Shown piece after piece: positions 36 to 26,443 of a DNA stretch of 36,703 nt; the first letter of the stretch is position 1; each line of letters starts with the position of its first letter. The translations under genes and the position numbers were made by a program. Below the pieces are notes generated by a model. It did not search any database. It was not told the origin of the DNA and saw only the letters and a program-made list of their open reading frames with translations. Origin of the DNA: Clostridia bacterium (lineage in GTDB: Bacteria; Bacillota; Clostridia; UBA1381; UBA9506); NCBI GenBank assembly GCA_017507525.1, contig JAFWAT010000019.1, forward strand, positions 1-36,703, written 5' to 3'.

Positions 36-64
36 TTGCAATTTTTCACAAATTGTGTTATACT
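36..64 (+). promoter_or_regulatory. Sigma-A promoter of the leader RNA / DUF4177 unit
   Basis: The -35 hexamer TTGCAA (36-41) and -10 hexamer TATACT (59-64) are separated by exactly 17 bp. This predicts a start near base 71, which is the first base of a long closed stem. The match to the vegetative consensus is strong, but the assignment rests on sequence alone. Confidence 0.75.
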
Positions 65-118
65 GTATGTGCAACAATTTTCTAAAAACTTAATAAATAT
101 TCCAAGAGGGGATACGCT

Positions 119-169
119 ATGTTAAAAGGCGCATGCTCTTGTTTCTGTGCACCCCTTGAGGAATATTAA
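119..169 (+). CDS. Putative 16-residue Cys-rich leader peptide
   Basis: ATG at 119 is preceded by AGAGGGG (105-111) at an ideal 7-nt spacing. The frame encodes MLKGACSCFCAPLEEY and ends at TAA (167-169). Three of the 16 codons are Cys, clustered as C-S-C-F-C. The Shine-Dalgarno bases are paired with 152-157 in the predicted rod, so translation and RNA folding would compete. This suggests a leader peptide whose translation controls the terminator at 224-261, possibly sensing cysteine. It could also be a small secreted or modified peptide, or chance. I know of no named family that matches. Confidence 0.4.
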   Translation: MLKGACSCFCAPLEEY

Positions 170-223
170 GTTGTGTAGAAAATTGTTGCAGATTTTCATG
201 AAACAGAGCCACTGCGCTTTTTG

Positions 224-261
224 GTGCGTGACTTTGCTTTGGTGAGGTCACGCACTTTTTT
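224..261 (+). terminator. Intrinsic terminator ahead of the DUF4177-like gene
   Basis: Perfect 9-bp arms GTGCGTGAC (224-232) and GTCACGCAC (247-255) with a 14-nt loop are followed by six T. It sits between the leader RNA and the Shine-Dalgarno site of the next gene, the usual place for an attenuator. Confidence 0.8.
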
Positions 262-281
262 ATTATAGGGGGCGGATACAA

Positions 282-494: not shown

Positions 495-530
495 TAAAAC
501 GGAGTCGCGAAATCACGACTCCGTTTTACT
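493..530. terminator. Bidirectional terminator, DUF4177-like gene / arg operon
   Basis: A perfect 15-bp inverted repeat (493-507 and 516-530) has AAAACGGAGTCG as its core arm and T-rich ends on both strands. It ends the plus-strand gene at 494 and the minus-strand RAYT-relic frame at 513. Both stop codons lie within the repeat. Confidence 0.8.
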
Positions 531-905
531 ATTATAAAAACAATCTTGTTCCCATTTAATTATGTTTGTATCTATGTAGTTCCAAATTTTAAGGTAATCC
601 TGCTTGTCACGGATGATGTGATCGTGAAAAGAACGTTGCCAGATTTTCTTTTCATCGTAAAGTATATGAATCTGTTTTGATGCATTCATTTTTAAATATC
701 CCATTGCTTTAGAAATAATTGACCGATGACGTTGTAGGAGCGATTCGTGAATCGCCCCTACAATTTTAGATAGTGTTTGTTTATGATTATGTGTACACAA
801 GGTCACAAAATACGCACCCGGTGCAGAATAATCATATCCTTTTAATCTGGTTGGCTTTCGATTTGGTAAATCTATTCCTTTACCGCTAACAGTCTTTTTA
901 TTCAT
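513..905 (-). CDS. Internally deleted REP-associated (Y1) transposase, copy 1
   Basis: This 130-residue frame has both ends of a REP-associated tyrosine transposase (RAYT, IS200-like Y1 family). The N-terminus has LPNRKPTRLKGYDYS and GAYFVTLCTHN. The C-terminus has IWQRSFHDHIIRDKQDYLKIWNYIDTN followed by KWEQDCF. The family's central part, with the metal-binding His-hydrophobic-His (HUH) motif usually seen as PNHVHLL, is missing. In its place is an open palindrome (732-763) translated as GAIHESLLQRH. The frame is intact but cannot encode an active nuclease. Intact relatives are about 180-250 residues. The start ATG overlaps the stop of the GNAT gene by 8 bp, placing the relic at the 3' end of the arg operon. 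A copy with the same architecture lies at 7821-8186. Confidence 0.8.
   Translation of the reverse strand: MNKKTVSGKGIDLPNRKPTRLKGYDYSAPGAYFVTLCTHNHKQTLSKIVGAIHESLLQRHRSIISKAMGYLKMNASKQIHILYDEKKIWQRSFHDHIIRDKQDYLKIWNYIDTNIIKWEQDCFYNSKTES
732..763. repeat. REP-like palindrome inside RAYT relic 1
   Basis: Arms of 15 bp (732-746 and 749-763) flank a 2-nt centre and carry the core GGCGATTC / GAATCGCC with outer GTAGGGG or CCCCTAC. One arm has a single mismatch (GTAGGAG on the plus strand). It matches the palindrome at 7939-7970 almost base for base, and shares the GTAGGGG head with the palindromes at 32956-33026. Confidence 0.8.
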
Positions 906-26178: not shown

Positions 26179-26443
26179 AAAAAAGCCCGCCCCCATAAAA
26201 GGGACGGGCATAAAGTTGCTCGTGGTACCACCCTTATTCCCAAAGCGGAGCTTTGGCTTCATTGGCGCGTGACGTGCGCTCCCGGCAGAGCCTAATAACA
26301 TAAAACGTTCAACCCTGCAGCTCCGGAGTGAAATTTCAAATCTGCCCTTAACCGGATTTCCTTTCAGCCGGTGAGAAATCCTCTCTTTTTTAGGTGGTGG
26401 CGATTCTACTTTGCTCCATCATAGCTTTTACTTATCACATATT
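26179..26443 (-). promoter_or_regulatory. T-box riboswitch, Phe specifier
   Basis: The leader of pheS contains the T-box sequence AAGGGTGGTACCACGAG (26219-26235 on the minus strand). It ends in an intrinsic terminator (26179-26209) of 9 bp with a T-run at 26184-26179. Stem I has the AGTAGAA loop element on its 5' side and, opposite, the specifier triplet UUC (26330-26332) followed by A. The stem is closed by GGAG/CTCC pairing. UUC is a Phe codon, so uncharged tRNA-Phe should stabilise the antiterminator and switch on the operon. Confidence 0.93.

Follow-up and report, generated by a model that had tools for sequence, protein, structure and literature searches.

The window (the whole stretch of DNA analysed, 36,703 nt) opens with a promoter, a leader RNA built around a long rod hairpin, and a small gene (Table 1). 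The gene product scores 20.5 bits against DUF4177, below the curated cut-off of 25. A sequence-only reading of this DNA had described a near-consensus promoter, a 14-bp closing stem and a Shine-Dalgarno site soon after a terminator, all of which were seen. The terminator and its T-run also stood, its stem having 15 pairs by scan rather than the 9 bp given then. The minimum free energy of the leader (71-262) is −72.3 kcal/mol, compared with −43.5 ± 4.2 kcal/mol for shuffled sequences (z −6.8). The start of contig C38, from the same genome, repeats positions 1-141 of the window exactly, in reverse; this represents an assembly-graph overlap, which places the leader's upstream neighbour on C38.

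Table 1. Features of the leader and the gene behind it (window coordinates)
Feature	Position	Strand	Details
Promoter	36-64	+	−35 TTGCAA (36-41); extended −10 TGnTATACT (56-64), TATACT at 59-64
Rod domain, 119 nt	71-189	+	Closing stem P1, AU-rich 5′ bulge (~93-96), upper stem P2
P1 closing stem, 14 bp	71-84/176-189	+	Folds
Segment 1, P3 5′ arm: AUACGCUA	112-119	+	Double changes in 7/7 P3 pairs across the family
Segment 2 (M): AAAAGGCGCAUGCUCUUGUUUCUGUGC	124-150	+	A-rich P3 loop, P3 3′ arm and J3/2
Segment 3 (S): UCAUGAAACAGAGCCACUGCGCUUUUUG	196-223	+	Partner is M (anti-antiterminator) or the terminator 5′ arm (antiterminator)
Segments 4 and 5 (T5′, T3′)	223-262	+	Intrinsic terminator stem 223-256, U-run to 262
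Shine-Dalgarno-like GGGGG, purine-rich	268-272	+	Seen in sequence
DUF4177-like gene, 70 aa	282-494	+	ATG at 282; presumed target of the window copy

The earlier remark that the RNA fits no known family was borne out when Rfam 15 was searched. No family matches the leader (71-262) even at an E-value of 10, apart from miRNA-like or sRNA chance matches far below cut-off, and no bacterial family was found at the leader in the loci of 40 relatives. Covariance models for 6S RNA and SRP RNA gave no match at the leader, and neither did that for the T-box, which did recover a T-box leader at gathering score elsewhere in the window (26197-26431, minus strand). In the literature, searched exclusive of supplementary lists such as the thousands of candidates of PMC8040213, no description of the leader was found.

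A DNA search revealed that the terminator block is conserved, and that relatives match the leader over its full length at 68-73% identity. Two models were constructed: R1, built from P2, P3 and the terminator, and the broader R2; the E-values of both are rough. In the order, R1 has matches in 71 of 95 genomes, a single genome holding as many as 20 copies, and in the class 76 of 391 genomes match; the copies total in the hundreds, six of them in the genome of the window. In a 398-genome sample of the phylum, R2 gave no match at an E-value of 1e-6 except in the queried genome, which doubles as a specificity control. The window leader is thus one copy of a previously uncatalogued, widespread RNA family in uncultured gut bacteria; the named contigs that carry it are from metagenome-assembled genomes, many of ruminant gut. 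At L163, L169, L100 and L113 copies lie in tandem, closely spaced and on the same strand. A phage or plasmid origin was considered and rejected, there being no match in IMG/VR (exact pattern), phage records or plasmid records.

Among 102 aligned matches, 93.6% of the cells in P2, P3 and the terminator are paired. Double changes occur in 25 of 26 modelled pairs (P2 8/8, P3 7/7, terminator 10/11), with 551 double-change cells against 141 in shuffled data, and sliding or shuffling the alignment abolishes the pairing signal. Compensatory changes among relatives, on which the earlier reading had staked its stems, are therefore abundant, a check for their absence having come out negative; change on this massive scale indicates that the modelled stems are under selection. 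Because these three helices are fitted by the model, independent tests weigh more. P1 lies outside the model; its first six pairs are fully paired in 93% of the copies, compared with 35% for swapped partners, and they co-vary (GCUACA/UGUAGC, ACCACA/UGUGGU, GUCACA/UGUGAC, GCGACA/UGUCGC). In 80 of 89 copies an extended −10 box is situated 6-7 nt upstream of the first base that pairs in the closing stem. Together with the covariation of P1 this makes it very likely that transcription starts at position 71, the first base of the rod hairpin, as the earlier reading had predicted. Nearly all copies possess their own promoter and their own terminator. Sequence conservation is slight outside the switching segments, apart from an AAA in the P3 loop (97-99% conserved by column) and a near-invariant U5 ahead of the terminator.

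A feature absent from the earlier reading is a segment downstream of the rod that has two pairing partners, the apical loop and the terminator's 5′ arm. Five segments form a covarying pairing chain (P3 5′ arm : M : S : T5′ : T3′). When each copy was paired with its own partner or with that of another copy, the M:S duplex gave −20.4 versus −14.6 kcal/mol (z −17.4; its 3′ half by itself, z −6.1), the pairing of J3/2 with the segment after the rod −9.9 versus −6.5 kcal/mol (z −14), and the antiterminator S:T5′ −13.0 versus −9.3 kcal/mol (z −13), although these z values treat related copies as independent and so overstate significance. A negative control segment pair gave z −0.5, and none of 2000 permutations came near the energies of the three pairings. 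The latter two pairings lie outside model R1. In the window copy M and S pair with −26.1 kcal/mol. A simple pseudoknot between the loop and the segment after the rod was rejected as the whole story, being superseded by the full M:S pairing, which accounts for the invariant AAA and U5. Within single genomes M:S stands at −19.6 kcal/mol for a copy's own segments and −15.8 kcal/mol with those of other copies; this copy-specific complementarity argues for action in cis, and a trans network among the copies was rejected on the same grounds.

Folding of the window leader by transcript length gives the antiterminator first, for transcripts ending at about 234-252, with the terminator winning from 257, these ViennaRNA energies being of a kind in which the pseudoknotted state cannot be scored against the alternative. 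The linker between P1 and S is nearly constant (about 4-11 nt, median 7), while rod lengths vary widely, the rod up to J3/2 often being some 30 bp. With so short a linker, M:S pairing in cis requires the rod to bend. The AU-rich 5′ bulges could be the bending sites, though they are absent from some predicted rods.

Downstream sequence was long enough for 87 copies to be judged. With a home-made ORF caller, 65 of these are followed within 130 nt by a same-strand ORF preceded by a Shine-Dalgarno site; the divergent side gave 17 of 81. About 75% of the leaders thus directly precede a ribosome-binding site. Measured from the U-run, 60 of the 64 listed starts fall within 60 nt and 29 within 30 nt, which leaves little or no room for a second promoter. 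The 64 listed target proteins include 13 with BspA-type LRR_5 repeats, eight YpsA-SLOG, seven Cu-amine-oxidase-N, six SLH and three DUF4177 proteins, and a crude, home-made signal-peptide score is positive for 40 of the 64 as against 18 of 107 background ORFs. The targets are, by these predictions, mostly secreted or surface proteins (BspA-like repeats, S-layer, copper-amine-oxidase-N) or SLOG proteins, with DUF4177 a minor class. Proteins of about 77-86 aa and unknown function (type MKLKYELLANAVSEAI...) recur behind the leader at L120, L121, L137 and L140.

Control of the DUF4177-like gene, as proposed from the sequence, survives in part. The leader adjoins the gene, and within the genus each of the four DUF4177-like genes has it just upstream (window, L034, L035, L040); it was found upstream of none of four more distant relatives (L036-L039), and elsewhere the targets are mostly surface and SLOG genes. 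A leader dedicated to DUF4177 was rejected: DUF4177-like genes occur in 7 of 150 genomes, against the 71 of 95 of the order for the RNA. About a quarter of the copies, including three of the six in the genome of the window, have no adjacent gene and keep the pairings. These three orphans are on contigs C8, C13 and C40 (L190, L174, L195) and have a promoter and a terminator with no adjacent downstream gene; one of them lies ahead of an opposite-strand terminator.

The order promoter, leader, terminator and gene, read earlier as that of a regulatory leader, recurs in most copies of the family, and a conserved, mutually exclusive antiterminator and terminator stand ahead of the gene, as in a cis-acting transcription attenuator. 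For surface-protein genes and others, the family probably sets the choice between being read and being stopped early. By sequence and covariation, the rod (P1/P2) presents the small apical hairpin P3 and the single-stranded joint J3/2. In the mechanism that we propose, P3 (segments 1:2) can coexist with the antiterminator S:T5′ (3:4), and this state would lead to read-through; M:S (2:3) can coexist with the terminator (4:5), and that state would lead to termination. P3 plus antiterminator and M:S plus terminator thus constitute two alternative global states. As to the direction of the decision, we infer that S lands first on J3/2 as a toehold and then invades P3, whereupon the terminator forms, which leaves the default state of the gene as off. 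A small molecule or protein that binds or stabilizes P3/J3-2 would block the toehold, S would take the terminator arm and read-through would follow, the P3/J3-2 loop thereby serving as sensor and toehold at once. We consider it likely that the leader is a self-contained, cis-acting transcription attenuator of this kind, triggered at P3/J3-2 and off by default, with a regulon of secreted or surface, SLOG-type and DUF4177-like proteins. That it represents a new class of riboswitch or of RNA-binding-protein target, governing a regulon of surface-protein and SLOG genes that numbers up to about 20 in a genome, through a toehold from which the RNA invades its own sensor hairpin, and perhaps reading a signalling nucleotide, is a tentative proposal, possible rather than probable.

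Nearly every copy having its own promoter and terminator, one might suppose that these are free-standing regulatory RNAs of about 190 nt which act in trans, gene adjacency being secondary; the sequence-only reading had offered such an RNA as an option. The orphans, half of the copies in the genome of the window, are in keeping with this and may be where it applies, and they retain M:S complementarity (−19.4 versus −20.3 kcal/mol). Against it stand the gene starts directly behind 65 of 87 copies, far in excess of the other side, and M:S complementarity which is particular to each copy and not common to those of one genome; an antiterminator, moreover, would be needless in a free RNA. We regard action in trans as unlikely. 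About as improbable, in our estimation, is an attenuator that lacks a ligand, in which polymerase speed, NusA/NusG or temperature would set the balance between M:S and the antiterminator. Such a kinetic or thermosensing device would suit a decision falling in a short range of lengths (~234-257 by folding), and the low conservation outside the switching segments, where the A's of the loop and the U's are explained by pairing; yet every copy bears the high cost of maintaining the rod with its apical P3, beyond what a pure kinetic device needs.

Peptide-coupled attenuation by ribosome stalling can be almost wholly discounted. It was suggested by a micro-ORF that had been counted as part of the leader, the window copy containing GAGGGG and an ATG ahead of a 16-codon ORF (MLKGACSCFCAPLEEY). 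Only 4 of 96 copies have a Shine-Dalgarno-preceded ORF of at least eight codons, and the ATG start is found in the window copy alone, so that the micro-ORF is coincidental; this candidate was rejected, largely refuted by non-conservation. It is also quite improbable, if less so, that the leader is a riboswitch candidate already described and merely uncatalogued, such as the SLH motif (PMC6429828), which likewise precedes S-layer genes in Clostridia. Stav et al. (2019) gave 80 examples of that motif, about 60% of them ahead of SLH-domain genes, and it occurs in Synergistaceae and Negativicutes, whereas the present family has hundreds of copies, SLH proteins as 6 of 64 targets, and, beyond the queried genome, no member in the 398-genome sample of the phylum. 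The SLH motif is the nearest published idea: both are at home in Clostridia and have S-layer homology genes as a partly common target class, and the motif, compared here by its description, differs in its far fewer examples, other phyla and mostly SLH targets. On the features compared, gene association and taxonomy, the two differ.

The preferred reading, a cis-acting attenuator, shares with the terminator-type riboswitches and protein-responsive attenuators of Bacillota a sensor domain in the 5′ leader, an exclusive choice of antiterminator or terminator and a Shine-Dalgarno site directly behind. Unlike these it has a five-segment chain, in which an anti-antiterminator in the apical joint would be able to strand-invade the sensor hairpin, and no known aptamer or Rfam family. 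T-box leaders (RF00230) similarly have a long leader stem, an antiterminator/terminator choice and several copies per genome; the present family targets surface proteins rather than amino-acid genes and gives no T-box match. Attenuators of the trp and pyr type also decide termination by a chain of mutually exclusive helices, but the leader has five segments instead of four, no conserved leader peptide and diverse, unlinked targets. On the sequence evidence we rate the family as an orphan leader, either an attenuator or a riboswitch candidate, whose five-segment switching chain is unusual.

Few Ruminant-gut Clostridia have been cultured and hardly anything is known of how their genes are regulated; the family would rank among their more numerous uncatalogued cis-regulatory RNAs. 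That exported proteins, among them BspA-like repeat and S-layer proteins, share a regulon suggests a common signal for surface remodelling, for the finding of which the leader RNA offers a handle. The toehold-like architecture of five segments would be a clean natural example of strand-displacement regulation.

A c-di-GMP-I riboswitch (L020, 1343-1422) lies close to one leader copy; this is probably coincidence, yet relevant to the surface-signalling idea. Downstream of the DUF4177-like gene, on the minus strand of the window (513-905), is a short ORF resembling REP-associated tyrosine transposases (NCBIfam NF047646, below cut-off). A REP-like palindrome, GTAGGAGCGATTCGTGAATCGCCCCTAC, is located inside its reading frame at about 733-762, and similar palindromes occur near several leader copies.
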